Positions 24,422 to 54,722 of a stretch of DNA of 64,000 nucleotides are shown piece after piece. This stretch comes from Phycisphaerae bacterium (GTDB lineage Bacteria; Planctomycetota; Phycisphaerae; UBA1845; Fen-1342). The DNA is taken from positions 1 to 64,000 of the forward strand of contig JAJVHV010000022.1 of assembly GCA_022072445.1 (NCBI GenBank), in the 5' to 3' direction. The notes below the pieces were generated by a model that was not told the DNA's origin, made no database searches, and saw only the letters and a list, made by a program, of their open reading frames with translations. A program made the position numbers and the translations under genes. Positions within the stretch are counted from its first letter, which is position 1, and each line of letters starts with the position of its first letter.

Positions 24422-27400
24422 CTACCGCGCGCCGGCCGGGTAGTTGAATCGTTTGACCGGATACGCGGGTTGAGACGCCGGCGGCACGGGCCGTTCGGCG
24501 ATCAGCTTCTGCAAGTGGGCGATCGCCGCCTTGAGCTGCGCGTCTTCGCCCTTGAAGGTCGCGTGCGGCAGGTTGTCGACCACCACGTGCGGCTCGACGC
24601 CGTGCCCTTCGATCAGCCATTCGCCCGCCGGGCCGTAGACGCCAGACTCGGCGGCGGTGGCGATTCCGTGGTCGACGAGGAAGTTGCTGGCGGAGAGCCA
24701 GATTTCGCCGCCCCAGGTGCGCGTGCCGATGACGGTGCCGATGCCCAGCCGCTTGATTCCCTCGCAGAAGGCCTCGCCGTCGGACGCGGTGCGCTCGTCG
24801 CAAAGAACGACGACGTGTCCGCGAAACGCGTACTGCATGTTCCACGCCGGCGACGCGCCGACGCGCTGGCTCCAGTAGAACCAGGCCTTGCGCAGCAAGC
24901 GGCCGATGATCCAACTGTCGATGTTGCCGCCGCGGTTGTGCCGCACGTCGACGATCAGCCCCTGGCGCGTGAAGACCGGATAGAAGCTCCGGGCCCACTC
25001 GCTGAAGTTTCCGCCGCCCATCGCCCGCAGGTGAACGTAACCGATCTGGCCGCGGCCGAGTTCTTCCACCATCTGGCGGCGCGTGTATTCCCATTCGTGG
25101 TAGCGCAGGTCGGCTTCGTCGTCAGGGCCGATGGGCGTGACGACGACGTCGCGCGGCGCGGCGCCGCCGGCCGGTCGTACGCGGAGCAGCACCTGTCGTC
25201 CGGCCTTCTGCCGCAGGAGCAGCGCCGGGTGCGCCACCGACAGCGCCGGCACGCCGTTGATCGCCTCGATCACGTCGCCGGCGTGCACGTCGACGCCGGG
25301 GCGCGCCAGCGGGCTGGTGCGCTGCGGCTCGTCCGGATCGGACAGGTAAATGTGCTCGACGCGGTAGCCGGCGGCGACTTCGTCGCGCAGCAACCGCGCG
25401 CCGAGCGCCGCGACGGCAACGTGATCCGGTCCTTCGCGCTGCGCGCCGCCGCGGACGAAAATGTGCAGCGCGGCCAGCTCGGCGACCATTTGTGCGACCA
25501 GATCGGAGAGCTCGGCGCGGGTGCTGACGCGGTCGACCAGCGGCAGGTACTTGTCGCGCATCTCCGGCCAGTCGACGCCGTGCATCGCCGGGTCGTAGAA
25601 ATAGTCGCGTTCCAGCCGCCAGGCTTCGATGAACATCTGCCGCCATTCCTCGCGGGGCGTGACGGACATGGTCCAGCCGGCCAGGTTCACGTCTTTGCGG
25701 TCGAGTGCCGCGGCGTCGGCATTGGCATCGACGATGTAGAGCGCCTCGCCCTTTCGAAGCAACAGTTTCTTGCCGTCCGGCGTCAGCTCGAAGCTGGCGA
25801 CGTCGGCCAGGACGGTTTTCACCTCGATATTCTCATTGCTGATCGCGACGGCCTGGAGCGTGTTCTTCGACTCGCCCGCCGGGCTCGACAGCCAGAAGAG
25901 CGCCTTGTCGTTGACGGCCAGATTGCCGTAGTTACCCGCCGGCACCGCGACTTCGATGATCCGAGTCGCGACGCCGTCGCGCTCGATCGCGACGCGCACG
26001 CCGCTTGTGCTGGCGGGCTGCGAAGTGTCGCTTTGCGGCTGTGCCGCGCTGCTCTGCGGTTGGGACGCGGCGCTCTCGGCCGCAGCGGGCCGGTCGGCGA
26101 GCTCATCGCGCGGCGCGAACGGCGAACGCAGGTCGCGCGTCAGCGCGATCTGGTAGATACGCGTCTTGCGGTCGAGAAACGGCTCGGGCTGATAGTTTCC
26201 CCACGGGCTGGCGACCACCGAGGCGAGATTGCGGTCGGACAGGACGTAGAGCCACTTGCCGTCAGGGCTCCAGGCGGGGCTGTAGGTGTCGTAGCGGTCG
26301 GTCGATGCGTCGAAGTGCGTCCGGTCTTCGACGCTGTAGATTCGCACGACGCGAAACAGGTTGTCCATCGTCACGACGTACGCCAAGAAGCGGCTGTCGG
26401 GCGACCAGGCCAGATCGGCGAAGTTGTCCACCGGCGACTCGTCGATGACGCGGTTCTCGCGCGATTCGACCTCGAGCAGGTGCAGGCGCTGGTTCTTGTC
26501 ATGATGGGCGATGAGACGCCCGTCGGGCGACGGCAGCAGGTCCCAGCGCAGCACGTCCGCCCCGTGCGTCAGTTGCTCGGCCGCGCCGACGCCGTTGGCC
26601 GGCAGCCGCCACAGCTCCACCTCGCCCGATTCGTCCGAGAGCGCAACGAGCGACTTGCCGTCGGGCATGAAGCGCGCCTGGCGATAGCGCACGCCCGGCC
26701 TGCGCGTGGCCTCGACCAGCCGGCCCTGGCGATGCGGCGCGACGAAGACCTGTCCGCGGGCGGTGAGCACGACACGGTCGCCGGTGGCCGACGCGTGTAC
26801 CGCCGTCACGTATTCCCAGGGCGATTTGACCCAGCTTTCGCGCGTCTGGTCGAAATCGGAATCGAGCGTGATCGGAATTGACCGGCTGGCACCCGTCGCG
26901 AGATCGAGCACGTACAGATCGGCGCCGAGCTGGTAGGCGACGCGGCCGTTGTGCAGCGACGGCCCGAGCACGTCGAAACCCGAGTGATGCGTGTGTTGGC
27001 GCGGGTCGCCGCCGTCGGGCGTCATCGACCAGACGTTCATCGTCCCGTCGCGGTCGGACGCGAAGTACACTCTCCCGCGCCACCACATCGGATCGCGGCT
27101 CGTGCCGGCGTAGTCGCCCGTCAGCGGCGTGGCCTCCGCATCGCCCTCGGCGAAGCGCCACAGATTCTGCGCCGTGCCGCCCTTGTAACGCTTCGTGTGC
27201 GAACCCTGAAACGCGAAGCGCGTGAAGAACAGCGCTCGCGCGTCGTCGTCGTACGCACCCTGAGCCGCCTGAGCCAGCGGCAGCAGCCGCGCGCTGCCGC
27301 GCTGCCCCTCCAGCGTCAGCGCGACCAACTGCGCGTTCGGCAGGGTCGAATGCTCGCGCGTCGCGTAGAGCACCTCGCCGCGCGGCGTCCAGCCGACGTA

Positions 27401-27820
27401 CTCCGGGTCGCTGCCCTGAAAGGTGCGCCGCGTGGGAAGTCCGCCGCTCAGCGGCATCGTGTAAAGCTCGTCGACGCCCTCATAGGCGGCGACGAACGCG
27501 ACCGTCTGCCCGTCGGGCGAGATCGCCGGATGGGACTCGTCGCCCGGATGGCTCGTCAGGCGCGTCGCGACGCCACCGTCGACGTGCGACTTCCACAGGT
27601 CGCCTTCGGCCACAAAGACCATCGTGTCGCCGTGCAGCTCGGGCTGCCGGTAGTAGCCGCGGACGCCGTCGGCATGCGCGAGGCCAAGAGCGCCCATCAG
27701 GACCCCGCACGCCAGTGCCGGGCGGCTGAACCCGCCACTCGCGTGGTGGGTTCTGTTCGCGGTTCCAAGCGTTGCGATGGCGGCTGCCCATGTGACGAGT
27801 GTGTGGAATGCGGTGCGCAT
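24422..27820 (-). CDS. Tricorn protease homologue, exported
   Basis: An 1132-residue serine protease of the S41B tricorn family, which degrades peptides into short products. The ATG at 27820, preceded by AGGAAA, gives a signal-like N-terminus ending ALGLAHA. A beta-propeller spans about residues 55-350 (SHPGDESHPAISPDGQTVAF, VGWTPRGEVLYATREH) and a second about 360-640. Next come the core helical region (WRQMFIEAWRLERDYFYDP) and a PDZ domain (LSDPDEPQRTSPLARPGVDV to GRQVLLRVRPAGG). The S41 catalytic domain has the nucleophile in DERTASDGEAF and the block GIGTVIGTRTWGGEIWLS. A Ser/Gln-rich linker (SAASQPQSSAAQPQ) joins propeller and core. Length matches the family. The cell location is probably periplasmic. 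Confidence 0.94.
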   Translation of the reverse strand: MRTAFHTLVTWAAAIATLGTANRTHHASGGFSRPALACGVLMGALGLAHADGVRGYYRQPELHGDTMVFVAEGDLWKSHVDGGVATRLTSHPGDESHPAISPDGQTVAFVAAYEGVDELYTMPLSGGLPTRRTFQGSDPEYVGWTPRGEVLYATREHSTLPNAQLVALTLEGQRGSARLLPLAQAAQGAYDDDARALFFTRFAFQGSHTKRYKGGTAQNLWRFAEGDAEATPLTGDYAGTSRDPMWWRGRVYFASDRDGTMNVWSMTPDGGDPRQHTHHSGFDVLGPSLHNGRVAYQLGADLYVLDLATGASRSIPITLDSDFDQTRESWVKSPWEYVTAVHASATGDRVVLTARGQVFVAPHRQGRLVEATRRPGVRYRQARFMPDGKSLVALSDESGEVELWRLPANGVGAAEQLTHGADVLRWDLLPSPDGRLIAHHDKNQRLHLLEVESRENRVIDESPVDNFADLAWSPDSRFLAYVVTMDNLFRVVRIYSVEDRTHFDASTDRYDTYSPAWSPDGKWLYVLSDRNLASVVASPWGNYQPEPFLDRKTRIYQIALTRDLRSPFAPRDELADRPAAAESAASQPQSSAAQPQSDTSQPASTSGVRVAIERDGVATRIIEVAVPAGNYGNLAVNDKALFWLSSPAGESKNTLQAVAISNENIEVKTVLADVASFELTPDGKKLLLRKGEALYIVDANADAAALDRKDVNLAGWTMSVTPREEWRQMFIEAWRLERDYFYDPAMHGVDWPEMRDKYLPLVDRVSTRAELSDLVAQMVAELAALHIFVRGGAQREGPDHVAVAALGARLLRDEVAAGYRVEHIYLSDPDEPQRTSPLARPGVDVHAGDVIEAINGVPALSVAHPALLLRQKAGRQVLLRVRPAGGAAPRDVVVTPIGPDDEADLRYHEWEYTRRQMVEELGRGQIGYVHLRAMGGGNFSEWARSFYPVFTRQGLIVDVRHNRGGNIDSWIIGRLLRKAWFYWSQRVGASPAWNMQYAFRGHVVVLCDERTASDGEAFCEGIKRLGIGTVIGTRTWGGEIWLSASNFLVDHGIATAAESGVYGPAGEWLIEGHGVEPHVVVDNLPHATFKGEDAQLKAAIAHLQKLIAERPVPPASQPAYPVKRFNYPAGAR

Positions 27821-27865
27821 GTACGTTTCCTGGTTTCGATTGCTCGCGTGCCGGGACGACGCGGC

Positions 27866-27871
27866 ATGGTA
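27866..27871 (-). promoter_or_regulatory. -10-like TACCAT hexamer before the tricorn gene
   Basis: The minus-strand TACCAT predicts transcription from about 27859 and a 39-base leader that carries the AGGAAA ribosome binding site. It contrasts with the SD-less genes, where the same hexamer abuts the start. Confidence 0.4.
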
Positions 27872-27956
27872 CCCGCTGGGCGCAACGTGGGAATGGGGGC
27901 CGCAGGACAAGGCGGGTGCGCCACCGGCGCGCTCGGCGTGGAGCGAACGGCTCGGT

Positions 27957-38657: not shown

Positions 38658-39467
38658 ATGAAACCGCTCCTCCGCGCCCTGGCCGCCTTCTTCCGCGCCG
38701 ACATGGCCACCATGCTGCAATACCGCGGCGAGAGCGTCCTGTGGGCCGTCTGGGGTATCGTCTACCCCGCGGTCGCCATGGCCATGTGGCAGGCCGCCGC
38801 GAACGACCCGGCCGACGGCAGCCGCGTCGGCGCGTTCGGCCGCGGGGGTTTCGCCGCTTATTTCCTGCTGTCGATGATCGTCGGACATCTGACGACCGCC
38901 TGGAGCGCCTACGAAATGGGCTATTTCGTCCGGCATGGCACCTACTCCACCTGGCTGCTCCAGCCGCTGCTGCCGATCTGGCGGTCCGCCGCCGGAAACG
39001 TCGCCTGGAAGCTCTTCACGACTGTGATCCTGGCCCCGCTCTGGCTCTTCGTCGCCCTGTGGGCGCGGCCGCACTTCGACCTCGACGCGCTGCACGTCGT
39101 CGCCGGGGTCGCCTCCGTGCTGCTGGCGATGGCCATCGCGTTTGTCTGGGATTACATCGTCGCGCTGGCCGCCTTCTGGACAACGCGCACCGACGCGATC
39201 GGCGAGCTCTGGTTCGGCGGCATGCTGCTCTTCGGCGGCCGATTGGCGCCCGTTGAGCTGTTGCCGGGGCCGCTCTACTACCTTTCCTACGCGCTGCCGC
39301 ACCAGTGGTCGCTTGGCTTTCCGACCGAAGTGCTGATCGGACATGCCTCGCCGGAGCGGATCACGAGCGGGCTGCTCTGGCAGGCGCTATGGCTGGTGGG
39401 CGGGCTGGCTCTTTTCCGTTTCGGCTGGAGGGTGTCGATCAAACGCTACAGCGCCGTCGGAGCGTGA
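38658..39467 (+). CDS. ABC-2 permease (PF06182-like), subunit 1
   Basis: A 269-residue membrane protein with about six helices, for example VLWAVWGIVYPAVAMAMW, FAAYFLLSMIVGHLTTAW, LFTTVILAPLWLFVALW and YIVALAAFWTTRTDAIGEL. It resembles the ABC-2 family members that occur as adjacent permease pairs with one ATPase. The block FWTTRTDAIGELWFGGMLLF is shared in form with the second permease (FWFTRIANIEMVFWNVF). It likely forms a heterodimer with the product at 39621 and uses the ATPase at 36339. The start is supported by the exact TACCAT spacing. Confidence 0.88.
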   Translation: MKPLLRALAAFFRADMATMLQYRGESVLWAVWGIVYPAVAMAMWQAAANDPADGSRVGAFGRGGFAAYFLLSMIVGHLTTAWSAYEMGYFVRHGTYSTWLLQPLLPIWRSAAGNVAWKLFTTVILAPLWLFVALWARPHFDLDALHVVAGVASVLLAMAIAFVWDYIVALAAFWTTRTDAIGELWFGGMLLFGGRLAPVELLPGPLYYLSYALPHQWSLGFPTEVLIGHASPERITSGLLWQALWLVGGLALFRFGWRVSIKRYSAVGA

Positions 39468-39620
39468 GATGTCAGAGCCCGATGCGAATAGGGTGCGCCC
39501 CTTGACGGCCCTTGACGCACCGCACCGTTTCCGGCCGATGACCGTGTGGTGCATCAGGGATGTACCCTGCGCGGCTGCCCCGCGCACCTTCGCACGTTCC
39601 CGCCGCGTGAGCCGACGAAT

Positions 39621-40427
39621 ATGCTGAACGCAACCACGATGACACGCTACCTGCGCCTGATCCGCATCCTCCTCGGCGTCAGCCTCCAGAACGAGACCGC
39701 CTACCGCTTCGACTTCCTCACCAAGGTCGCCGGCTCGCTGCTGAACGTCTGCGGCGAACTGTTCACCCTCTGGGCCATCTTCGCCAACGCGCGCTCGCTG
39801 GCCGGCTGGGGACCCTACGAAGTCGTCGTGCTGCTGGGCGTGTTCCGCGTCATGGTCGGACTGGTGGGCATGGTCATCGCGCCCAACATGCGGGCGGTGA
39901 TGGAGGACGTCCGCAGCGGCGGACTCGATCACGTGCTGGTCAAACCCGTCAGCGCGCAGTTCTACGCCAGCTTTCGCAACTGGGTCCTCTTCCGCGGACT
40001 CGACGGCCTGATGGGTGCCGTGATGATCATCGTCGGTTGCACGCTGCTCTCGGCCCGCGTCTCGCTCGCGACGCTCGCGCTGTTTGCGATCACCATCGCC
40101 GCCGGGGCCGTGATCATCTATTCCTTCTGGCTCATCCTCGCAACCACCACCTTCTGGTTCACGCGCATCGCGAACATCGAGATGGTCTTCTGGAACGTCT
40201 TTCACGCCGGCCGCTACCCGCTGGAGGTTTATCAGCCCTGGGTCCGCTGGCTGCTGACGTTCATCCTGCCGCTCGCGTTCCTGACGACGTTTCCAGCCCA
40301 GGCACTCGTCGGCCGCGCCGGCCTCGCCACGCTCCTCACGAGCCTCACCGTCGCCCCGGCGATGTTCCTGCTCGCGACGGCGTTCTGGCATTTCGGCCTC
40401 CGCCGCTACAGCGGCGCCTCCGCCTAG
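39621..40427 (+). CDS. ABC-2 permease (PF06182-like), subunit 2
   Basis: A 268-residue membrane protein with about six helices: VVVLLGVFRVMVGLVGMVIA, GLMGAVMIIVGCTLLSARV, FAITIAAGAVIIYSFWLILA and WLLTFILPLAFLTTFPAQAL. The motif VRSGGLDHVLVKPVSAQFYA is typical of this permease family. It lies 153 bases after subunit 1 in the same direction. The alternative ATG at 39639 would start at MTRYLRLIRI. Known relatives are poorly characterised exporters. Confidence 0.88.
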   Translation: MLNATTMTRYLRLIRILLGVSLQNETAYRFDFLTKVAGSLLNVCGELFTLWAIFANARSLAGWGPYEVVVLLGVFRVMVGLVGMVIAPNMRAVMEDVRSGGLDHVLVKPVSAQFYASFRNWVLFRGLDGLMGAVMIIVGCTLLSARVSLATLALFAITIAAGAVIIYSFWLILATTTFWFTRIANIEMVFWNVFHAGRYPLEVYQPWVRWLLTFILPLAFLTTFPAQALVGRAGLATLLTSLTVAPAMFLLATAFWHFGLRRYSGASA

Positions 40428-40621
40428 CCCGGCCCTGCGCACCAATCGCGAAACCAGGCCCCGCCCCGCCGCCTCCGCATAGCCCGCCCCGCGCCTCCGT
40501 GCCAGCCCGCTGGAGTCGGGTGGAGCGGGCATCCTGCCCGTCCGGGCCGGTTGAAAATCCGCCCGCCTGTAACCGGTTGTGAAGCCGCCCCACCGAAAAA
40601 CCGCCCCACACGGCTTGACCA

Positions 40622-41911
40622 CTACTTCACGCGCTGGCCGTCGGTCACGTTTGCCGCGGCGTCGGCCACGATCGTATCGCCGTCGCGCAGGCCGTCGAGA
40701 ACCTCGACGAGCGTGCCGCTCTGCCGCCCAGTGCGGATCAACGTCAGCCGCGCGCGGCCGTCGACCAGCGCGAAGACCGCGCTGCCACTCGACGACTTGC
40801 GGATCGCGCTCTCCGGAATCCAGATCGAGCTGCGCGCCGGCTGGCTGGCGGCCGCGCCGTGTGAGTCGCCGGCGGCTGCGTCCGAATCGCCGGCGGCGGC
40901 GCCGCGTGGATCATTGAAGAACGCCACCTGAGCGGCGCCTTCGACGCGCAGCCGCGCATCGGGGTTGTCGATGCGGACCTTCACCTGCACGGTCGCCTTG
41001 GCATAATTCGCGCCGGGATCGATCCACATGACGCGGCCGGTATAGCGCTGCTCCTTGTACGCGTCGGGTGTGATGACGCAGCGCATGCCCTTCTCCACGC
41101 GGATGATGTCCAGCTCGCTCACGTCCACCTCGACGCGCAGCTTGCTCATGTCGGCGATCGACGCGAACTGCGCGTTGGCGTTCGCGCCGCGCCCGCCCTC
41201 CGCTGCCACAAAGTCGCCCACCTCGACGTTGCGCTCCAGCACGACGCCGGCGATCGGCGCGATCACCTCCGTGTCCGTCAGGGCCTTCTGGGCGAACTCC
41301 AGCGCCGCGGTGTGGGCGGCGACCTGCGCCCGGGCGTCGTCGAGCCAGCGCCGCGCGTCGACGTGCTCCTGGTCGCTGGCGCGCGAATCGCGGAAGAGCG
41401 CGTCGACCCGCGCGAAGTTGAATTCCTGATACGCCAGGTTGGCACGCGATTTCTCCAGCTCAGCCTGCGCCTGGTCGCGCCGCGCGCGGTAATTCACGTC
41501 CTCGATCCGGGCCAGCACCTGCCCTCGCGTCACCTGGTCCCCCTGCTCAAAACGCAACTCGACGATCTGCCCCGAGACCTTCGTCACCACCTGCACGCGA
41601 TGGTCCGAGACGATCTTGCCCGCCGCCGTCAGCACGGGCGGCGCCTCGGCGTCGCCGCGGGCCGCGACGCGCAGCGTGCGAATCTCGGCTGGCGCGGCAC
41701 CTGGCGCCATCGTCAGCGCCGCCGCACCCCAGCGCATCCACGCAAAGTAGCCCCCCGCTCCCAGCGCCGCGACGAATGCCAGCCGCAGCAACACGGCTCC
41801 GGCGCGCCCCGCGGCGCGCCCGGTACCCGCGCGCGGCGCACCACGCGGCCGCTGCGCTTTTTCGATCGAAAGCGCCTCGAGCCGCTGCTTCAGCTCGCTG
41901 GTGGCATTCAT
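40622..41911 (-). CDS. HlyD/RND-type periplasmic adaptor
   Basis: A 429-residue membrane-fusion protein. One N-terminal membrane helix (LLRLAFVAALGAGGYFAWM) anchors a periplasmic part. The lipoyl half is VQVVTKVSGQIVELRFEQGD, then comes a coiled hairpin (RRDQAQAELEKSRANLAYQE) and the second lipoyl half VIAPIAGVVLERNVEVGDFV. Beta-barrel strands follow (VDVSELDIIRVEKGMRCVIT). A DAAAGDSHGAAASQ insertion interrupts the C-terminal domain. It is the last gene of a six-gene operon with four MacB-like permeases and links them to an outer-membrane exit or an extracytoplasmic substrate. A TACAAT lies exactly 6 bases before the ATG, so it may also be transcribed alone. Confidence 0.92.
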   Translation of the reverse strand: MNATSELKQRLEALSIEKAQRPRGAPRAGTGRAAGRAGAVLLRLAFVAALGAGGYFAWMRWGAAALTMAPGAAPAEIRTLRVAARGDAEAPPVLTAAGKIVSDHRVQVVTKVSGQIVELRFEQGDQVTRGQVLARIEDVNYRARRDQAQAELEKSRANLAYQEFNFARVDALFRDSRASDQEHVDARRWLDDARAQVAAHTAALEFAQKALTDTEVIAPIAGVVLERNVEVGDFVAAEGGRGANANAQFASIADMSKLRVEVDVSELDIIRVEKGMRCVITPDAYKEQRYTGRVMWIDPGANYAKATVQVKVRIDNPDARLRVEGAAQVAFFNDPRGAAAGDSDAAAGDSHGAAASQPARSSIWIPESAIRKSSSGSAVFALVDGRARLTLIRTGRQSGTLVEVLDGLRDGDTIVADAAANVTDGQRVK

Positions 41912-41917
41912 CCGAGG

Positions 41918-41923
41918 ATTGTA
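41918..41923 (-). promoter_or_regulatory. -10-like TACAAT exactly 6 bases before the adaptor start
   Basis: The minus-strand TACAAT in the 20-base gap after the permease stop places the predicted +1 on the A of the ATG at 41911. No ribosome binding site is present. An internal operon promoter giving a leaderless message is possible. Confidence 0.48.
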
Positions 41924-41931
41924 CCCGACGC

Positions 41932-43104
41932 TTACGCCTTTCGCAGGGCGTCGATCACCCGCAGCCGCGCGGCCCGCAGCGCCGGCGCCGCCGCCCCCGC
42001 CACGCCGACGACCACGGAAAGCGCGAACGCCCACGCCACGATGCCCGGCGTCAGCCGCAGCTCATAGGCCAGCACCGTCCAGGTCGTGTCCGAGAGGAAG
42101 TCCTGCCGCATGCCGTTGAAGCCGACGCTGGCGGTGAGTCCGAAAACACACGCCAGCGTGCAGATCAGCACCGACTCGATCACGAAGCTCAGCACCACCG
42201 CGCCGCGCGAAAAGCCGATCGTCCGCAGCATCGCGATCTCGCGCCGCCGCCCGTCAACCGCCGCATACATCGTATTCGCGACGGCGAACGCCGCTCCGAC
42301 CGCCATGATGCCGATCAGCACGCTCGTCAGCATGACGATCTCGGTCGTCTTGGCGGTCAGCTCGCGGTAATACTCCGTCTCGGGTTTGGCATCGAGCTGG
42401 ACGGCGGCGCTGCGAATGTACGCCACGGCTGGCTCGACGTCCGCGGGGCCGCCCAGCCGGACGACGACCGACGAGACCACGTCGCGTTCGAACGAGTCCT
42501 GAATCTGCGGCCTCGGTCCCCACACTTCGCTCTCCAGCGCTCCGCCGTCCGCCTCGAAGACGCCGACAACGGTGTAATCGCGGTTGCCCAGCCGCCCCAG
42601 CGCGATGCTCTCGTTCAGCCGCAGGCCGGCGAAGCGCTTCTGTGCCGCCCGGCCGACCGCCACCTCCATCTTCCCCGCGTCGGGCCAGCGGCCCTCGACC
42701 AGCCGCACGTTGTCGTGAACGGCATAGGCCAGCACATCGACGCCCCGAATCGCCACGTTGGCCGGCCGGTCGCGCTGCCCCAGCCGCGGGATGGCGGATT
42801 GGACCGCGACTTCGCTGCTGATCATCAGCGCACCGTCGGCCTGCCGCGCCACCCCGGGCGTCTGCACGACGCGCGCGATCTCCTCAGGCTGCAGGATGCT
42901 CGTGCTCTCCGCGGTCGCGCCGGGCTTCAGGACGATCAGGTTGAGCGGCGAGCCGGTCGCCACCAGCGAAGCGCGGATGCCGGCGGCGAACGACAGCAGC
43001 ACCGCCAGCACCAGCACGATCACCGCCACCACGATGAACGTCAGCCCGGTACTCAGCTTGCGGACGAACAAGTTGCGCCAGTTGTAGCTCAACGGCAGGA
43101 TCAT
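41932..43104 (-). CDS. MacB/FtsX-type ABC permease B2
   Basis: A 390-residue permease with an N-terminal helix (MILPLSYNWRNLFVRKLSTG), a large periplasmic domain and three C-terminal helices with the FtsX signature (GRRREIAMLRTIGFSRGAVV). It is a clear paralogue of B1 at 44382-45566: both begin with LPLSYxWRNLFVRK and share VAVRGV-like and TREIAMLRTIGF-like blocks. The start lies five bases after the A2 stop, so the two are probably co-translated. It belongs to the LolCDE/MacB exporter class, which moves lipoproteins, peptides or other envelope substrates. Confidence 0.9.
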   Translation of the reverse strand: MILPLSYNWRNLFVRKLSTGLTFIVVAVIVLVLAVLLSFAAGIRASLVATGSPLNLIVLKPGATAESTSILQPEEIARVVQTPGVARQADGALMISSEVAVQSAIPRLGQRDRPANVAIRGVDVLAYAVHDNVRLVEGRWPDAGKMEVAVGRAAQKRFAGLRLNESIALGRLGNRDYTVVGVFEADGGALESEVWGPRPQIQDSFERDVVSSVVVRLGGPADVEPAVAYIRSAAVQLDAKPETEYYRELTAKTTEIVMLTSVLIGIMAVGAAFAVANTMYAAVDGRRREIAMLRTIGFSRGAVVLSFVIESVLICTLACVFGLTASVGFNGMRQDFLSDTTWTVLAYELRLTPGIVAWAFALSVVVGVAGAAAPALRAARLRVIDALRKA

Positions 43105-43109
43105 CGCCG

Positions 43110-44282
43110 CTACTCCAGGTTCCGCAGCGCCGCGACGACGCGCATCCGCATGGCCGCGACAGCCGGCCACAGCGCCGCCAGCAGACCGATCCCCAGGGCG
43201 ATCAGCAGCGCCTGCCCGCAGACCGCCGGGCGAATGTCGAGGTACTGAATCACCGGAATCGTGACGTTGGCCAGCGGCGTATGCGTGAAAGCCACGTAGG
43301 GCCCGCCCGCTCCCAACAACCCGCCCAGCAGGCACACGCCCAGGCTCTCGATCTGCATCAGCCGTGAGACGAAGCCGCCGCCAAAGCCCAGCGCCTTGAG
43401 CGTGGCAAATTCGTTGATGCGGTCGCGGAAATTCATGCTCATGGTGTTGGCCGCGGCCATGATCGCCACGAAGACGGTCACCGCCGCCAGGATCGTCAGG
43501 TTGCGCGGCAGGTCGAAATTCTGCGTGATGAACTGGTTCATGAAGGCTTTCTCGTCCTGGACGGAGACGGGATCGGCCGAGGTGTTCAGCAGGTCCGCGA
43601 TCTCGACGTGCAGCGCATCCAGGTCAGCCTTGGAGCCGCACTTGACGAAGTAGAAGCTGACCCGGTCGGCCGGATAGCGCACGCGCTTCAGCTCCTCCTC
43701 CAGATAGTCGCGCCGGCACCAGTTCGTGATCGGGTCGGCGCCGTTTTCGAGCGTCGTCACCACGTGAAATTCCATCGGCGTGTAGGGCGGCACGGACGGG
43801 CTGATCGTGATCCGGTCGCCGACCTTCCAGCCGAACTGCTTGGCGGTCCCGCGGCCCAGCGCGATCGCCTGCCGGTCGCGGGCCCAGGCCTCGTTCTCCT
43901 CCGGCGTCATCCCGGTGTCGGGAAATGCCACGTAAAACGCGTCCTCGTCGACCGCCAGCGTCGAGAGCGGCCGCGGATCGCGCTCCACCTTGCCGCCGAT
44001 CCAGCGCACGCCGCACACGCCGCGCAGCCGCGTCTTCTGCGGATCGAGCGATTCAATGCGCGTGCGATGCGCGGAGGGTAGCTGCGTGACGATCGAGACG
44101 CGGCTGGAGACGACCAGGCGGAGCTGGCGTGCCGAGTTGTCGAGGAAGCGCTCGATGCCGTCGATCACGGCGACCGACAGCACGAAGATCATGATCGGCA
44201 GCGCGACGGCGGCGCAGGTCAGACTCGTCCGCATCGGGTTGCGGATCGCGTTCTGGTACAGATAGATCAGCGTCAGCGGCAC
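43110..44282 (-). CDS. MacB/FtsX-type ABC permease A2
   Basis: A 390-residue permease with an N-terminal helix (LTCAAVALPIMIFVLSVAVI), a periplasmic domain containing LRGVCGVRWIGGKVERD, and three C-terminal helices (NFRDRINEFATLKALGFGGG). It is a paralogue of A1: both have YxxQNxxRNPMRTxLTC near the start and CGVRWxGG in the periplasmic domain. It follows B1 by 99 bases and precedes B2 by 5, forming the second permease pair of the operon. Confidence 0.9.
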   Translation of the reverse strand: MPLTLIYLYQNAIRNPMRTSLTCAAVALPIMIFVLSVAVIDGIERFLDNSARQLRLVVSSRVSIVTQLPSAHRTRIESLDPQKTRLRGVCGVRWIGGKVERDPRPLSTLAVDEDAFYVAFPDTGMTPEENEAWARDRQAIALGRGTAKQFGWKVGDRITISPSVPPYTPMEFHVVTTLENGADPITNWCRRDYLEEELKRVRYPADRVSFYFVKCGSKADLDALHVEIADLLNTSADPVSVQDEKAFMNQFITQNFDLPRNLTILAAVTVFVAIMAAANTMSMNFRDRINEFATLKALGFGGGFVSRLMQIESLGVCLLGGLLGAGGPYVAFTHTPLANVTIPVIQYLDIRPAVCGQALLIALGIGLLAALWPAVAAMRMRVVAALRNLE

Positions 44283-44381
44283 CGCGTTTCCCGCCGCCGG
44301 GGGGCCAGCGCCGCGCGGCGCGCTGCTCCGCCGCCCGCCGCCGCACTCACGCCCGCGCCGCGGCCGGCGCGCGGCTCGCGG

Positions 44382-45566
44382 CTATTCTTCGCGTAGCGCA
44401 CGGATCACCTGCGTCTGTGCGGCGCGCCGTGCCGGAAAGACCGCCCCCAGCACGCCCACCACCGCAACCATGGCCAGCGAAATGAGCACGATGACCGGCG
44501 TCATGCGGATGTCGAACGCCATGGCGGTAAACGTGCTGGTCCCAAACATGTCTTTGGTGTGGCCGACGAACTGCAGCCACGCCCAGCAGGCCGCACAGCC
44601 CAGGGCGCCGCCCAGCAACGCCAGCAGTGTCGACTCGAGCATGAAGCCGCGCAGCACCTGCCCGCCCGAAAAGCCGATCGTGCGCAGCATGGCAATCTCG
44701 CGCGTGCGGCCGGCGACGGTGGCGAACATGGTGTTGGCGATCGAGAACATCGCCGCGAGCGTCATCATGCCGATCAGCACGTAGCAGACCCCCTGGTAGA
44801 TTCGCACCATCGACGACTGGCTGCGCCAATAGTCACCCTCGGTCTGCCCGCTGAGCTGGATCGCCGCCCCGGCCATCTGCGCGATCGTCGCCGCCGGGTC
44901 GGCCCCTTCGCGCAGCCGCAGCGAGGCGGCGGAGTAACCGGTGCGGCCGTAGGCGCTCTGCAGCAGCGGCAGGTAGGCCCAGATCTCGCTCTCCATCGGG
45001 CCGCCGTCGGCACTGAAGTATCCGACCACCTTGAACTCGCGGTTCTCGGCGAATCCCAGCCGCAGCGTGTCGCCGATGTTCAGCCCGCTGAACTGCTTGG
45101 CCGCGCTCAGCCCGACGATCACCTCGGGCAAGCCAGTCGAGATGGTAGCTCCCTGCGGGCGCACGTTGCGATGCACGAGAAAGGCCATCTCGGTCACGCC
45201 GCGGACCGCGACGTTGGCCCGCGTCGCGCCGCCGTCGCGGACGCGCGGAAGCTGCGTCTGCCAGAACATCTCCGGGCTGATGAGCTCGCGGCCGGTATCC
45301 GGGTCGCGCTCGACGTCGGTGAGCTGCGTGAGGCGGTTGAACTCCTCGGGCGAAATGGCGCTGTTAGTCTCCGAGGTCCCGCCGCGCTGCAGCACGATGA
45401 TCTTGCGCGGGTCGCTGGCCACCGACAGCGCCCGGTTCAGCGCCGCGACGAATCCGATCACCCAGGCAAACGTGCCGACCACCGCGGCGATCACCAGCAC
45501 GGTCAGCGCCGTGGTCGCCTTTCGCACGAACAGGTTTCGCCAGTGATACGAGAGCGGTAGCGCCAT
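44382..45566 (-). CDS. MacB/FtsX-type ABC permease B1
   Basis: A 394-residue permease starting MALPLSYHWRNLFVRKATTA with AAAAGGA directly before the ATG. A periplasmic domain (IIVLQRGGTSETNSAISPEE, VAVRGVTEMAFLVHRNVRPQ) is followed by three membrane helices with GRTREIAMLRTIGFSGGQVL. The closest relative in the window is B2. Ten bases separate it from A1. Confidence 0.9.
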   Translation of the reverse strand: MALPLSYHWRNLFVRKATTALTVLVIAAVVGTFAWVIGFVAALNRALSVASDPRKIIVLQRGGTSETNSAISPEEFNRLTQLTDVERDPDTGRELISPEMFWQTQLPRVRDGGATRANVAVRGVTEMAFLVHRNVRPQGATISTGLPEVIVGLSAAKQFSGLNIGDTLRLGFAENREFKVVGYFSADGGPMESEIWAYLPLLQSAYGRTGYSAASLRLREGADPAATIAQMAGAAIQLSGQTEGDYWRSQSSMVRIYQGVCYVLIGMMTLAAMFSIANTMFATVAGRTREIAMLRTIGFSGGQVLRGFMLESTLLALLGGALGCAACWAWLQFVGHTKDMFGTSTFTAMAFDIRMTPVIVLISLAMVAVVGVLGAVFPARRAAQTQVIRALREE

Positions 45567-45576
45567 TCCTTTTGCC

Positions 45577-46746
45577 TCACGCGATCTTGCGCAGCGCCGC
45601 GACCGTGTTCAGACGATACGCCTGCATGGCCGGCAGCAGCCCCGCCACAACGCCCACCAGCAGCGCGATCGCAATCGACACGCCGATCGCGATCGGCGAG
45701 ACCTCCAGCGACGAGAGCGGCAGAAACCCAAGCCGCTTGAGCGGAAAGGCGAGCAGCGCGGCGGCCGTCGGGACGATGCCGAGCAGCGCTCCAACCAGCG
45801 CCAGGATGACGCTCTCGGCCAGCACGATGCGGAAGACGCGCCCGCCCTGAAAGCCGATCGCCTTGAAGACCGCCAGCTCGCGCGTCCGCTCGCGGAAACT
45901 CATCATCATCGTGTTGCCCGCCACCAGCGCCACGATGAACACCACCACCATCGCGATCGCCCGCATCAGCCCCGGCAGGTCGCCCGCCGCCTGCGCGAAG
46001 TTCGCCATGAACGCGTTCTCATCCATCGTCTTCGTCTCGTTCGGCGTGTTCGCGAAACGCGGATCGACCTCCGCCTGCAGCGCCCGCAGTGCCGCCAGAT
46101 CGCTGCACTTCAGCCAGAACAAGTTGCACCCCGGGGTCACAAACCCCGCCGTCCGCCGCGACTCCTCGAAGTAGTCGCGCCGCAGGTAAAGCGAATTCGT
46201 TCGCCCCTCCGTCGTCACGATCTTGATCACGTGAAATTCCAGCGCCAGGTTGGGCGGCACCGAACTCTCGAGCGTGATCCGGTCGCCGGCCTTCCAGCCA
46301 TACTGCTCGGCGACGTTGGTGCCGACCACGCACGCCTGCCGGTCCTTCGCCCAGCTCTCGCGCTCCGCATCGGTCCAGCCGATCTCGTCGAACACCAGCG
46401 GAAACGTGTCCACGTCCGCGCCCAGGCTCTGAATCACACTCGGCGTGTTCTGCACCCGGCCGCCGAACCAGCGCACGCCGCACACCGCCCGGATGCGCGT
46501 CTTGTCCGGATCGAGCGCCTCGATCTCGGCCCGCATCCGCTCCGGCAGCGCGTTGACCAGCGCGATCCGGCTCTGCACCGCCAGACGGAGCTGGGCGGCG
46601 TTGAGCGCGTTCAGCTTGACCATAGCGACAATCAGCGAAATGGCCGCCACGAAAACGCCCATCGGCAGCGCGAAGCTCAGGCAGGTGAGCAGCGTCCGCA
46701 TCGGGTTTCGCCGCAGGTTCTGCATCAGTACGTAGGTGATCGTCAC
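45577..46746 (-). CDS. MacB/FtsX-type ABC permease A1
   Basis: A 389-residue permease starting [20 protein letters not shown]. The periplasmic domain includes [19 protein letters not shown] and [20 protein letters not shown], matched by WARDRQAIALGRGTAKQFGW in A2. The C-terminal FtsX block is [20 protein letters not shown]. It is the first permease after the ATPase gene, 16 bases downstream of it. Confidence 0.9.
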
Positions 46747-46762
46747 GCCGCCACTCCGCCCG

Positions 46763-47476
46763 TCAGGCCCGCGCGCCGGCCCGCGCTGCGGTCAGCTCTT
46801 CGCGATGCAGCACGCCTTTGTCCAGGTGCACGATCCGCTCGCCGTGCTGCGCCGCCTTCGGATCGTGCGTCACCATCAGGATGGTCTTCTTGAACTCGCT
46901 GTTGAGCAGGTTCATCAGGTTGAGGATTTCCTCGGACGTGCGGGCGTCGAGATCGCCGGTCGGCTCGTCCGCCAGGATGACGTCCGGATCGGTGACGATC
47001 GCCCGCGCGATCGCGACGCGCTGCTCCTGCCCGCCCGAAAGCTGATTCGGACGATGGTGCATGCGGTCGCTCAGCCCAACCACGTCCAGCGCCGTCGTGA
47101 CCCGCTGACGCCGCTCCCCCGACGACATCCGATAAAGCAGCAGCGGCAACTCGACGTTCTGCGCCGCCGTCAGAACCGGCACCAGATGGTACATCTGAAA
47201 GATGAAGCCGACGTGCCGGCTGCGCCAGGCGGTCAGCTCGCGTTCATTCATGTTTTCGAGCCGAGCCTCGCCGACGCGAACACTGCCGCCGGTCGGCGAG
47301 TCGAGCCCGCCCACCAGGTGCAGCAGCGTCGATTTTCCCGAGCCGCTCGGCCCCATCAGCACGACGAACTCGCCGCTGCGGATGGCGAGGTCGAGCCCGT
47401 CGAGCACCGGAATCTCCAGTCGGTCCTTGTAGTACGCCTTTCGAACGTCCTTCAACTCGATATCCGCGCCGCTCAT
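46763..47476 (-). CDS. LolD/MacB-type ABC ATPase
   Basis: A 237-residue ATPase with Walker [20 protein letters not shown]-loop [10 protein letters not shown], signature [14 protein letters not shown], Walker [13 protein letters not shown] and switch [10 protein letters not shown]. The loop [16 protein letters not shown] is typical of LolD/MacB enzymes. It is the only ATPase in the operon and must energise both permease pairs, unless the pairs act in different complexes. GGGAG precedes the ATG, and a minus-strand TAACAT at 47501-47506 is a candidate -10. Confidence 0.95.
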
Positions 47477-47668: not shown

Positions 47669-47929
47669 ATGGGTTCAGATCAGGCTCTCGACAGCACGCT
47701 GAAACGCGTCTTCTGCTCGGTCTTCGACGTCACGCCCGACGCCGTCACCGACCAGACGCGGCGCGGCGAGCTGGAGCGCTGGGATTCGCTCGGCCACATC
47801 GACCTGCTCGAAGCGCTCCGCAACGAGTTTCAATTCGAGATCCCCGTGGATCAGGCGCTGGAGATGGAAACCGTCGCCGACATCAAGCGCATTCTCCGCT
47901 CGCTCGGCTCTCCGCGCGGAAGACACTGA
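47669..47929 (+). CDS. Acyl carrier protein
   Basis: An 86-residue four-helix carrier. The phosphopantetheine attachment serine is in WDSLGHIDLLEAL, and helix III is FEIPVDQALEMETVADIKRIL. Length and acidity are normal for a free-standing ACP, but it is not the fatty-acid AcpP by neighbourhood. Its TGA is followed immediately by the ATG of the aldehyde dehydrogenase. As the first gene of a four-gene unit it presumably carries the acyl group handled by the downstream enzymes. GAGGA lies 10 bases upstream. Confidence 0.92.
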   Translation: MGSDQALDSTLKRVFCSVFDVTPDAVTDQTRRGELERWDSLGHIDLLEALRNEFQFEIPVDQALEMETVADIKRILRSLGSPRGRH

Positions 47930-49426
47930 ATGTCACGCTCTACCACGGCGCCGCGCTGCGATCCGGGCCATTCGGCCGGCATGGCCGGCGCGCCCCGGCT
48001 CTGGATCGCCGGCGCGCCAGCCGAGGCCCACGACGGCCGCACGTTTCCCGTGCACGACCCCTCAACCGCCGAACACCTCTGCGACGCGCCGCGCGGCGCG
48101 GCACCCGACGTCGATCGGGCCGTGCGGGCGGCCGCGGCGGCGCTGCCCGGCTGGGCCGCGCTGCGGACCACCCAGCGCGGCCGCGTTCTGTTCGACGTCG
48201 CCAACGCCCTCCGCGCTCACGCGGACGAACTCGCGCTGCTCGAGACACTCGACAATGGCAAGCCGCGGCGTGAAGCGCGCGACGACGTGGCGAAATCGGC
48301 CGAGGCGTTCGAATTCTACGCCGGCCTGGCCGACAAGATTTTCGGCACCACCATTCCGGTGGCGCCCGAGTTCTTCAATTACACGCTGCGCGAGCCCGTC
48401 GGCGTGACGGCCCACATCGCGCCGTGGAATTACCCACTGCGGCTGGCGCTGCGCAGCGTCGCGCCGGCGCTGGCCGCCGGAAACACCGTCGTATTGAAAC
48501 CCGCCGAAGAGACGCCGCTGACGGCTCTGCGCCTCGGCCCGATCTTCGCGCAGGCCGGCCTGCCACCGGGCGTCTTCAACGTCGTGTCCGGGTTCGGTCC
48601 GGAGGCCGGCGCGGCGCTCGCCGGGCATCCGCGCGTCAATCACATCGCGTTCACCGGCTCGGTCGAGACGGGCATTCGCGTGATGCAGGCCGCGGCGCGA
48701 AACGTCGTACCCGTCACGCTGGAGCTGGGCGGCAAGTCGCCCAACATCGTGTTTGCCGACGCGGCCATCGACCGGGCGGTGGCCGGCGCGGTCAAGGCGA
48801 TCTTCTCCAACGCCGGCCAGGTGTGCTGCGCGGGTTCGCGCCTCCTGCTGCAACGCTCGATCCACGACGAATTCGTCGCGCGACTCGCCGACGCCGCCCG
48901 CCGCCTGCGCGTCGGCCCGGGCATCGACGACCCCGACGTCGGACCACTCATCTCACGCCAGCAGCGCGACGCCGTCCTCGACTTCATCGACGCCGCTCGC
49001 AACAGCGGCGGAGTGCTGCGCTGCGGCGGAGGCGTTCCGGCGGCCCCGGAGTGCCAACGCGGCTGGTTCGTCGAGCCCACCATCATCGTCGGACTTCCGC
49101 CCGATCATCCTTGCGCGCGCGAGGAGATCTTCGGCCCTGTGCTGTGCGTCCTGCCATTCGACGACGACGCGCAGGCCGTCGCGCTGGCCAACGACAACCC
49201 CTACGGGCTGGTCGCCGGCGTCTGGACCCGCGACCTCGATCGCGCCCACCGCGTCGCCGCACAGCTCCACGCCGGACAGGTCTACGTCAACGACTTCTTC
49301 ATCGGCACCGTCGCCTGCCCGTTCGGCGGAACCAAGCGCAGCGGATTCGGCCGGGAGCGCGGCGTCGAAGCGCTTCAGCATTACACGCAGGTGAAAAGCG
49401 TCTGCATCCGCCTTGGGAGTGCCTGA
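47930..49426 (+). CDS. NAD(P)-dependent aldehyde dehydrogenase
   Basis: A 498-residue enzyme of the ALDH superfamily, oxidising an aldehyde to the acid in the cytoplasm. Visible are the nucleotide-site block IAPWNYPLRLALRSVAPALA, VVLKPAEETPLTAL, the glycine motif FTGSVETG, the general base in VTLELGGKSPNIVF, the catalytic cysteine in NAGQVCCAGSRLLLQ, and the C-terminal EEIFGPVL and PFGGTKRSGFGRE. It resembles the betaine-aldehyde or hydroxymuconic-semialdehyde type, but the substrate cannot be read. Zero spacing to the ACP gene and 2 bases to the SDR gene indicate one transcript. Confidence 0.95.
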   Translation: MSRSTTAPRCDPGHSAGMAGAPRLWIAGAPAEAHDGRTFPVHDPSTAEHLCDAPRGAAPDVDRAVRAAAAALPGWAALRTTQRGRVLFDVANALRAHADELALLETLDNGKPRREARDDVAKSAEAFEFYAGLADKIFGTTIPVAPEFFNYTLREPVGVTAHIAPWNYPLRLALRSVAPALAAGNTVVLKPAEETPLTALRLGPIFAQAGLPPGVFNVVSGFGPEAGAALAGHPRVNHIAFTGSVETGIRVMQAAARNVVPVTLELGGKSPNIVFADAAIDRAVAGAVKAIFSNAGQVCCAGSRLLLQRSIHDEFVARLADAARRLRVGPGIDDPDVGPLISRQQRDAVLDFIDAARNSGGVLRCGGGVPAAPECQRGWFVEPTIIVGLPPDHPCAREEIFGPVLCVLPFDDDAQAVALANDNPYGLVAGVWTRDLDRAHRVAAQLHAGQVYVNDFFIGTVACPFGGTKRSGFGRERGVEALQHYTQVKSVCIRLGSA

Positions 49427-49428
49427 GC

Positions 49429-50169
49429 ATGCAACTCTCCGATCGTGTCGTCGTCATCACAGGTGCCGCGGGCGGAATCGGCCGAGCCTACGCCCGCCGC
49501 ATGCTCCACGAGGGAGCCCGCGTCGTGCTGACCGACGTCTGCGGCGCGTCGGCCGTCGACAGCCTGCTGGCCGATGGCGAGGGGATCTTCGTCGAGGCCG
49601 ATTTGCGCTCCCCCGACGCAGCCGACGCCGTGATCGCCGCCGCCGAGGAGCGCTTCGGCTGCGTCGACGTGCTGATCAACAATGCGGCCCTCTTCACGAC
49701 GCTTCCGCGGCGCTCGTTCGAGCAACTGACCGTCGAGGAGTGGGAGCAGGTGCTGTCGGTCAACGTGGTGGGCGTGTTCAACATGACCCGCGCCGTCACG
49801 CCGCTGATGAAACGCCGCCAGTACGGCCGGATCGTCAACGTCGCGTCCAACGTCGTGCACAAGGGACTGCCGAACCTGCTGCACTACGTGGCGTCGAAAG
49901 GCGCGGTGATCGCCATGACGCGCTCGCTGGCCCGCGAGCTCGGCCCCTACGGCATCACGGTGAACGCGATCGCCCCAGGCTACGTGATGCACGACGGAAC
50001 GATCGCCAGCGACCACGGCCGCAACGAGCAGGTCGTCCGCCTGCGGGCCATGCCGCGGACGCAGACGCCCGAAGACCTGGTGGGCGTGGTCGCCTTCCTG
50101 GCGTCCGCCGAGAGCGAGTTCATCACCGGTCAGACGATCGTGGTCGACGGCGGCGAGGTGTTCGCGTGA
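49429..50169 (+). CDS. Short-chain dehydrogenase/reductase
   Basis: A 246-residue classical SDR. The cofactor loop is TGAAGGIGRAYARRM, the structural motif is LINNAALF, the catalytic serine is in IVNVASN, and the YxxxK pair is in YVASKGAVIAMTRSLA. The C-terminus is typical (FITGQTIVVDGGEVFA). The Asp after strand 2 (VLTDV) suggests NAD preference. It resembles FabG-like 3-oxoacyl reductases, which fits the neighbouring ACP. The GTGA overlap with the UbiD gene indicates translational coupling. Confidence 0.95.
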   Translation: MQLSDRVVVITGAAGGIGRAYARRMLHEGARVVLTDVCGASAVDSLLADGEGIFVEADLRSPDAADAVIAAAEERFGCVDVLINNAALFTTLPRRSFEQLTVEEWEQVLSVNVVGVFNMTRAVTPLMKRRQYGRIVNVASNVVHKGLPNLLHYVASKGAVIAMTRSLARELGPYGITVNAIAPGYVMHDGTIASDHGRNEQVVRLRAMPRTQTPEDLVGVVAFLASAESEFITGQTIVVDGGEVFA

Positions 50170-51695
50170 GCGAGCTCCGCCCGCGCTCGCACCGCGACCT
50201 GCGCAGCTATCTCGACTGTCTGAGCGCGTGCGGCCGGCTGCGGCGCGTCGCGGCGGCCGTCGACATCGAGCGCGAGCTGGCCTGTGTGGCCCGCTGGGCC
50301 GTCGAAACGACCGCCGAGCACGCACAATACGCGATCCGCTTCGAACAGCCGCGCGGCTTCGACCTGCCCGTCTGCGTCAATCTCTACACCACGCACGAAA
50401 TGGCCGCCCTGGCCCTGGGCGTCGCGCCAGCCCAGCTCTACGCACACTGGTCGGCGGCGCTGACCACGCCCATCCCGCCGCGCGTCGTCGACCGCGGCGC
50501 GGTGCACGAGCAAGTTCGCACCGCCGCCGACGCGCGCCTGACGCGCATCCCCGCGCCCGTCTGGACGCCCGGACGCGACACGGCTCGCTATTTCTCCGCC
50601 GCCGCGGTCATCACGGTCGATCCGGATACCGGGGTGCAGAACGTCGGCACCTATCGCGCCCAGCTTCACGACGACCAGCACGTCGGCATCTTCTTCGGCA
50701 GCCGGCACCAGCACGGCGCGATGCACTACGCCCGCTGGCAGGCTCGCGGCCGCGCCATGCCCGTCGCGCTGGTCATCGGCGCCGCACCGGCGGTCAATTT
50801 CGCCGCCGCCGCCAAGACCGCCTACGGCGTCGACGAACTGACGATCGCCGGCGGGCTGCTCGGCGAGCCGCTCGACGTGGTCCGCTGCCGTACGTCCGAC
50901 CTGCTCGTGCCGGCCGAGGCCGAGTGCGTCATCGAGGCGACGATCGCGCCCGAGGCGCTGCGCGAAGAAGGGCCGTTCGGCGAAGCGCTGGGCTACATGA
51001 ACCTCAGCGCCCCGGCACCGGCCGCCGAGGTGACCGCGATCTGCATGCGGCGCGACGCGCTCCACCACGGCTACATCCAGCAGCTTCCGCCCACCGACGG
51101 ACATCGCGTCATGGAGCTGGGCGTGCTCGGGCCGCTCTGGCACTATCTGACGAAGCGGCTGGGCGTCCGCGGCGTCCGCGATCTGGCGATCGCTCCCGGC
51201 AGCGCCGCGGTCGCGACGCTGGCCGTCCAGCTCGACGCGGAAGGCGCGCGCTCGGCGGCCTCGATCGGCCGCGCGCTGGCGAAGCTGAACTTCGGCCAGA
51301 AGTTCATCTATCTGCTCGACGCCGACGTGGACATCCGCGACCCGCAGACGCTCAACTGGGCCATCAGCACGCGCGTCGATCCGGCCCGCGACATCACGCT
51401 GATCGACGGCATCCAGACCTGGCAGCTCGACCCGTCGGTCATGCACCGCGCCCAGCGCGACGGCCTCGCCCTGGACGCGGCGCCGTATGCCTCCTCCATC
51501 GCCGTCGTCGACGCGACGCTCAAGTGCCGGGCCCCGGCCATTTCGCTGCCCGATGCAGCCTCCATGCGGCGGGTGCAATCCGACTGGCCGCGCTACGGCC
51601 TGCCCCCGCTCGCGCCGCGCGCGAGACTCGAAACGCTGCTCGCCTCCCATCCGGAGGGGGGACTTGAAATGCCGCCTCCCCGTGGCAGCCCGTAG
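50166..51695 (+). CDS. UbiD-family prenylated-FMN decarboxylase
   Basis: A 509-residue enzyme of the UbiD family, which uses prenylated FMN made by UbiX for reversible decarboxylation of aromatic or unsaturated acids. The catalytic region EALREEGPFGEALGYM carries the conserved Arg-Glu-Glu elements. Other family blocks are NVGTYRAQLHDDQHVGIFF, IGAAPAVNFAAAAKTAYGVD and IYLLDADVDIRDPQTLNWAI. The GTG start overlaps the SDR stop by four bases. No ubiX gene lies in the window. Alone it could be an aromatic-acid decarboxylase; with ACP, SDR and ALDH it suggests a short biosynthetic or catabolic route. Family assignment is firm, substrate unknown. Confidence 0.93.
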   Translation: MSELRPRSHRDLRSYLDCLSACGRLRRVAAAVDIERELACVARWAVETTAEHAQYAIRFEQPRGFDLPVCVNLYTTHEMAALALGVAPAQLYAHWSAALTTPIPPRVVDRGAVHEQVRTAADARLTRIPAPVWTPGRDTARYFSAAAVITVDPDTGVQNVGTYRAQLHDDQHVGIFFGSRHQHGAMHYARWQARGRAMPVALVIGAAPAVNFAAAAKTAYGVDELTIAGGLLGEPLDVVRCRTSDLLVPAEAECVIEATIAPEALREEGPFGEALGYMNLSAPAPAAEVTAICMRRDALHHGYIQQLPPTDGHRVMELGVLGPLWHYLTKRLGVRGVRDLAIAPGSAAVATLAVQLDAEGARSAASIGRALAKLNFGQKFIYLLDADVDIRDPQTLNWAISTRVDPARDITLIDGIQTWQLDPSVMHRAQRDGLALDAAPYASSIAVVDATLKCRAPAISLPDAASMRRVQSDWPRYGLPPLAPRARLETLLASHPEGGLEMPPPRGSP

Positions 51696-54236: not shown

Positions 54237-54300
54237 GTCAACTGGGCAGTGTACCCCCGACCGGCGTCAGGGCTTCGGATGCCCGGACTGGCGTCGGCGC

Positions 54301-54660
54301 GGTCCGGATGGGCCGTCCGACCAGCGCCGACCATCCGAACCCCTCACGCGAGTGAGGGGTCGGAGGCGGGTGGCGCGCGCGGCGTCAAGAAACGCCGCCA
54401 AGGCGCGGAGGTGTCGGCGCGGTTCGGATGGGCCGTCCGACCAGCGCCGACCATCCGAACCCCTCACGCGAGTGAGGGGTCGGAGGCGGGTGGCGCGCGC
54501 GGCGTCAAGAAACGCCGCCAAGGCGCGGAAGCGTCGGGGCGGTCCGGATGGGCCGTCCGACGAGCGCCGACCATCCGAACCCCTCACGCGAGTGAGGGGT
54601 CGGAGGCGGGTGGCGCGCGCGGCGTCAAGAAACGCCGCCAAGGCGCGGAGGCGTCGGGGC
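54301..54660. repeat. Three tandem 120-bp repeats
   Basis: Units at 54301-54420, 54421-54540 and 54541-54660 are nearly identical. Each contains the hairpin ACCCCTCAC/GTGAGGGGT with a GCGA tetraloop (first copy 54339-54360) and a second small stem GGCGT/ACGCC. Because 120 is a multiple of three and stop codons are rare, long frames cross it, but they carry no protein signature. The GAACCCCTC and GAGGGGTCGG core resembles the repeats at 1-345 and 24.2-24.4 kb. Confidence 0.95.
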
Positions 54661-54722
54661 GCGGAGGCATTGCGCCGCGGAGGCGTCCCGGCGCGGAGGC
54701 ATCGCGCCGCGGAGGCGTCCCG
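54659..54722. repeat. Two tandem 32-bp repeats next to the 120-bp array
   Basis: Units at 54659-54690 and 54691-54722 read GCGCGGAGGCAT(T/C)GCGCC then GCGGAGGCGTCCCG, differing at one base. They appear to extend the GCGCGGAGGCGTC end of the 120-bp unit. Confidence 0.88.

Follow-up and report, generated by a model that had tools for sequence, protein, structure and literature searches.

An ACP-ALDH-SDR-UbiD operon in a Phycisphaerae bacterium as the candidate second half of a furan-acid pathway

The catabolism of hydroxymethylfurfural (HMF) follows a logic of oxidation and decarboxylation (PMC6604932). In this hmf route, alcohol and aldehyde groups are oxidized, and the carboxyl group beside the ring oxygen is then removed by HmfF, a UbiD-family decarboxylase of furan-2,5-dicarboxylate that needs UbiX. 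Furan rings are made by the MfnB family, which converts two glyceraldehyde-3-phosphates into 4-hydroxymethylfurfural phosphate (PMC6604932). Other described systems are the pairing of an AMP-ligase with an aryl carrier protein for a small aromatic acid, as with EntE, and the UbiD enzymes of secondary metabolism, such as TtnD. Here we describe a four-gene operon at positions 47669 to 51695 of a 64,000-nucleotide stretch of a Phycisphaerae bacterium (positions 1 to 64,000 of contig JAJVHV010000022.1, assembly GCA_022072445.1; the window from here on), which encodes an acyl carrier protein (ACP), an aldehyde dehydrogenase (ALDH), a short-chain dehydrogenase/reductase (SDR) and a UbiD-family decarboxylase.

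Each of the known systems resembles this locus in part. HmfF is the nearest solved relative of the operon UbiD by sequence, although the operon has an SDR and an ALDH where hmf has the flavin oxidase HmfH, and its partners are a furan synthase and an ACP, whereas hmf is tied to furoyl-CoA catabolism. The furan synthase gene matches the MfnB family (PF04476) and keeps its catalytic Asp and Lys, but it is paired with an AMP-ligase gene, and in relatives also with ACP, ALDH, SDR and UbiD genes, in an order of bacteria without the methanofuran formyltransferase. The ligase and carrier protein recall the EntE type, and the matches of the ligase include 2,3-dihydroxybenzoate- and salicylate-AMP ligases; it differs in its N-terminal HTH_17 domain and in its proposed substrate, a furan acid. 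TtnD and its like share a biosynthetic rather than catabolic setting, but no polyketide synthase lies near the operon. On balance, we lean toward reading the operon as the second half of a furan-acid pathway, the first half of which (AMP-ligase and MfnB) would be the pair found on another contig of the genome.

The operon and its conservation

The window comes from contig C25 of a genome of 5.25 Mb (G000). All four operon genes are open frames on the + strand, with spacings of 0, 2 and -4 bases:

47669..47929, + strand, free-standing ACP, 86 aa (PF00550, 29.9 bits, E 6.8e-7; phosphopantetheine Ser40)
47930..49426, + strand, NAD(P)-type ALDH of predicted hydrolytic type (C299, E265), 498 aa (PF00171, E 3.5e-176)
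49429..50169, + strand, SDR, 246 aa (adh_short, E 4e-55; N112, S140, Y153, K157)
50166..51695, + strand, UbiD-family prenylated-FMN (prFMN) decarboxylase with a GTG start, 509 aa (UbiD N, central and C domains)

The GTG start of the UbiD gene overlaps the SDR stop by 4 bases. Every coordinate of the original prediction proved correct, its outline of a single transcript holds, and the four families that it had read from motifs are borne out by Pfam matches and by the presence of the catalytic residues. These are S40 in the WDSLGH motif of the ACP; N167, K190, E265, C299 and E399 in the ALDH; the TGxxxGxG motif of the SDR together with the four residues listed above; and, in the UbiD, the E(D)-R-E network and the cofactor and metal ligands (R164, E268, E273, N159, E253). 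The three UbiD domains were found above cut-off (PF20695, PF01977 and PF20696, with E values of 2.3e-10, 1e-58 and 3.2e-17). The ACP scores far below the cut-off of TIGR00517 for ACPs of fatty-acid synthesis (27 bits versus 70). An ALDH with the general-base Glu265 is expected to release free acids, not thioesters. This Glu of the ELGGK motif is present, so a CoA- or ACP-acylating enzyme was rejected, and the residues should fit a hydrolytic, free-acid-forming ALDH rather than a thioester reductase.

As the original prediction had it, no ubiX, ketosynthase or phosphopantetheinyl transferase gene adjoins the operon. A canonical UbiX is encoded elsewhere in the same genome (G000:C6:153800-154330; NF004685, 208.7 bits with a cut-off of 188; TIGR00421 also over its cut-off). 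Scans for promoters, terminators and Rfam families gave nothing above chance expectation.

To follow the gene order we used 114 genomes of the order and a 392-genome sample of the phylum. The operon-type UbiD was found in 3 of the 114 (G000, G001 and G452) and in no further genome of the phylum sample. In G001, the SDR and UbiD genes lie at the end of contig C94 and the ACP, ALDH and SDR genes at the start of contig C253; since the two contig ends have an exact 127-base stretch in common, inside the SDR gene, the four genes are contiguous there and in the same order. In G452, which belongs to another family of the order, the ALDH, SDR and UbiD genes follow each other at an end of C207, with the ACP gene 0.9 kb downstream of the UbiD gene, while the end of C493 encodes the N-terminal part of the ALDH. 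Identities to the window proteins were 57% (G001) and 52% (G452) for the ACP, 67% for the ALDH of G001, 57% for the SDR of G452 and 76% over the 136 SDR residues present on C94 of G001, and 58% for the UbiD orthologues. Because the full order is kept in G001 and ALDH-SDR-UbiD in G452, at protein identities of 52 to 76%, the arrangement is more than chance. Wherever this UbiD occurs in the relatives, few as they are, its partner genes accompany it, and in all three genomes the ACP is kept with the block.

The linked furan synthase and AMP-ligase

The steps that were predicted to be encoded elsewhere were found as an AMP-ligase and an MfnB furan synthase, with genes that overlap by 4 bases on contig C9 of the window's genome (L094:7359-9865) and not on the contig of the operon. 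In G001, all six genes form a run on a single strand, AMP-ligase-MfnB-ACP-ALDH-SDR-UbiD, across the two contigs joined by the 127-base end, and in G452 the ligase-MfnB pair precedes the ALDH on C493. The three MfnB proteins are 68 to 77% identical to each other and keep D25, K27, K85, D151 and K155 of MJ1099. The match to PF04476 is strong in G001 (258.6 bits, cut-off 22.4, E 7e-77), and the protein of the window's genome, with 284 bits, falls just under the NCBIfam equivalog cut-off of 304. With these two enzymes as the missing steps, a furan acid becomes the most likely compound.

Within the order, PF04476 scores above 250 bits occur in exactly the three genomes with the operon UbiD, and six other genomes reach at most 182 bits. 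Treating genomes as independent, such an exact coincidence would arise by chance with a probability of about 4e-6, a figure that is only descriptive, since the genomes may share the genes by common descent or by transfer of a single block. The marker of the methanofuran pathway, formylmethanofuran:tetrahydromethanopterin formyltransferase (PF01913), was found in none of the 114 genomes, with positive controls. To the extent that this marker is informative, its absence excludes the methanofuran or methylofuran one-carbon pathway as the function of MfnB here, and we rejected that role for this order. Beyond the three genomes, the only MfnB approaching these scores in the phylum sample had 229 bits and belongs to the planctomycete G412. 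There (L129:9524-11085), an MfnB that is 43% identical is directly followed by a gene of the amino-acid-kinase family, possibly MfnE-like, which would be another kind of furan partner.

The AMP-ligase is related to nonribosomal peptide synthetase (NRPS) adenylation domains, to fatty-acyl ligases and to aryl-acid ligases. Its N-terminal HTH_17 domain, a DNA-binding domain of the excisionase/MerR type, is conserved in all three genomes and is an unusual fusion (L094:7359-9131; L089:3172-4959; L105:1568-3379). Divergent PF04476 genes, MfnB-like and about 25% identical, were also seen in defense-like islands of other planctomycetes (L109:1808-7769; L108:6611-9224; L107:7474-9852; L110:1011-8106), with neighbors such as HmaC (1111 bits), HerA (610 bits), a ParB_N-DNA methylase, and DUF6119 with a DEAD helicase. 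The two proteins of these islands that were scanned had no match among the PADLOC models.

It is unlikely that the two gene groups are independent, with the ACP-ALDH-SDR-UbiD block modifying another acid, (hetero)aromatic or unsaturated and either free or ACP-bound, from a different pathway and the ligase-MfnB pair being a separate function that is a chance neighbor in two genomes. Their location on different contigs in the window's genome would fit this explanation, as would the breadth of the ALDH, SDR and UbiD families and the structural tie of HmfF, HudA and VdcC (see below). However, the UbiD and the MfnB occur in the same 3 of 114 genomes, they are brought into direct adjacency in two genomes of different families, and the closest solved UbiD is an enzyme of furan acids.

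UbiD specificity and the proposed route

When the operon UbiD was compared by sequence profile with enzymes of solved structure, HmfF came first (274 bits), followed by E. coli UbiD (205), the phenazine-1-carboxylate decarboxylase 7pda (196), AnInD (195), TtnD and VdcC (171 each) and then AroY, HudA and Fdc1. It did not group tightly with any single-enzyme decarboxylase, being only about 30% identical to any characterized enzyme, HmfF included. In HudA, N318 corresponds to H297 of HmfF, which was reported as key to furan specificity (PMC7976604). H313 of the operon UbiD aligns with this H297 in the profile alignment and one column off in a larger MAFFT alignment, leaving the match uncertain by one residue. 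H313 is invariant in the three orthologues, whereas the loop of most other UbiDs in the comparison has Ser, Asp, Tyr or Phe; the weaker relatives within the order (G003, G018, G028, G030 and G045, about 30 to 35% identity) are without the His. HmfF depends on a second carboxylate for activation (PMC8252502), in keeping with the operon UbiD acting on a dicarboxylate. The predicted structure (pLDDT, the predicted local distance difference test, of 82.8) aligned best, by VIA-align, with the pyrrole-acid enzyme HudA (Z 41.8) and with HmfF (Z 41.5), ahead of VdcC (Z 40.9), but these values lie within 1 of each other and are tied, so that this model cannot separate the UbiD subfamilies. A menaquinone decarboxylase was rejected, as the operon UbiD has 210 bits with TIGR03701 (cut-off 495.9) and a separate gene on C23 of G000 scores 572.

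The six genes are observed directly in their content, coupling, conserved catalytic residues, shared occurrence and neighborhood; the co-occurrence and the kinship to HmfF argue for a furan route. In these bacteria, sugar phosphates are probably converted into a small furan acid that is attached to the carrier protein. From its family, MfnB is predicted to convert two glyceraldehyde-3-phosphates into (5-formylfuran-3-yl)methyl phosphate, a phosphorylated form of the HMF isomer with 2,4-substitution. Some phosphatase would remove the phosphate, the SDR would oxidize the CH2OH to a CHO group, and the ALDH would oxidize aldehydes to acids, probably giving furan-2,4-dicarboxylate. The UbiD, with prFMN from the UbiX of the genome, would then remove the 2-carboxylate beside the ring oxygen in the manner of HmfF, leaving 3-furoate; loss at this position is favored in HmfF- and HudA-type chemistry. 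Finally, the AMP-ligase would load the acid onto the ACP, probably as 3-furoyl-ACP, for transfer to an acceptor, although the order of oxidation, decarboxylation and loading is not fixed by the data. The oxidation and decarboxylation that the original prediction had outlined for an ACP-linked acid or aldehyde would stand; of its two suggested products, the aromatic one is retained as a furan acid and a terminally unsaturated one appears less likely. The inferred pathway would use the chemistry of HMF catabolism, oxidation and decarboxylation, on the 2,4-isomer of HMF, and for synthesis instead of breakdown.

Several points weigh against this reading, in addition to the tied structural scores and the one-residue uncertainty of the His. 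UbiD substrates are not reliably readable from sequence, the assignment of substrates on this basis is also weak for the ALDH, SDR and AMP-ligase families, the ALDH and SDR families are promiscuous, and the AMP-ligase matches no NCBIfam model above cut-off, which leaves its substrate unpredicted. No phosphatase gene is linked to the block. The gene set comes from three genomes only, one of which has the two groups apart, and all the assemblies are fragmented; two of the three gene runs cross contig ends, with no more than 7 bases in common between the ends in G452.

The fate of the furan acid can be proposed only tentatively. The route might lead from glycolytic triose phosphates to 3-furoyl-ACP and supply a furan acyl group for a surface glycan or another metabolite, possibly through a transferase of the GNAT family that converges on the UbiD gene in G001 and G452. 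The block of G001 lies beside genes for a glycosyltransferase, an FkbM methyltransferase and a polysaccharide deacetylase, and the ACP gene of G452 beside an HldE-like gene. These surface-sugar neighbors and the GNAT gene give only hints about the acyl acceptor. The GNAT transferase was rejected as a core part of the system, as it has no homologue in G000.

A scheme in which a furan is formed without decarboxylation to 3-furoate is rather improbable. Here, the ligase and ACP would carry another acid (e.g., amino or fatty) for attachment to the alcohol or phosphate of the furan, the UbiD would act on one of the parts before or after this, and the outcome would be a metabolite that contains a furan but differs in structure. 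The kinship of the ligase with NRPS adenylation domains and fatty-acyl ligases and the GNAT and surface-sugar genes adjoining the block in the relatives agree with such a scheme, but no condensing enzyme is linked, and the lack of a GNAT homologue in the window's genome speaks against it as well.

Proteobacterial relatives of the UbiD (L022-L062) often occur in clusters of several UbiD genes, of which some include an SDR, and their specificity loop reads PSESS; they often adjoin UbiX, ALDH, major facilitator superfamily (MFS) or SDR genes in apparently catabolic clusters, and no ACP match was found near them. A catabolic operon, in which the SDR and ALDH would oxidize an imported furan or aromatic alcohol, the UbiD would decarboxylate it and the ACP would be incidental, shares its order of alcohol, aldehyde, acid and decarboxylation with HMF catabolism and its setting with these clusters, but it is very improbable, as a furan synthase and a carrier protein are features of synthesis and the ACP accompanies the block in each of the three genomes. 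Two Defluviicoccus loci (L034:83-5794 and L029:5717-11626) carry three UbiD paralogues in tandem with an SDR that is about 46% identical to that of the window. In a plasmid collection, only UbiDs of at most 34% identity were found.

Surrounding genes and implications

Upstream of the operon, in the opposite direction, there is an ABC-transporter ATPase (by Pfam) and then FtsX-like permeases, judged from sequence, which form a row of genes on the - strand at 39387-47476. This divergent transporter is unsupported as a part of the pathway, and in G001 the ligase gene has instead an aconitase-like gene upstream, read from sequence. Downstream follow a convergent gene with no Pfam match and an Fpg-type glycosylase. 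Between the latter and a protease-like gene lies a GC-rich tandem array (54290-54661) of 120-base units in 3.1 copies with 96% matches. Farther away, both on the - strand, are a nitronate-monooxygenase-type protein with a FabD-insert domain (PF03060 and PF21607), whose gene overlaps a LytB/IspH gene by 4 bases (20083-22745), and a tricorn-protease-type protein (24422-27910; Tricorn_C1, PDZ_Tricorn, Peptidase_S41).

In open-licence full texts of PubMed Central, MfnB is described solely for the biosynthesis of methanofuran and methylofuran and HmfF for the breakdown of furans, and no description of such a pathway of MfnB, UbiD, ACP and a furoyl group was found. As far as could be checked, the parts all come from known families and their combination is new. 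If the reading is true, the six genes would make a furan acid by a short bacterial route that is independent of polyketide, terpene and fatty-acid chemistry. They would give a role to an orphan furan synthase, add furan-2,4-dicarboxylate as a new substrate of the UbiD family and provide enzymes for making bio-based 2,4- and 3-substituted furans.

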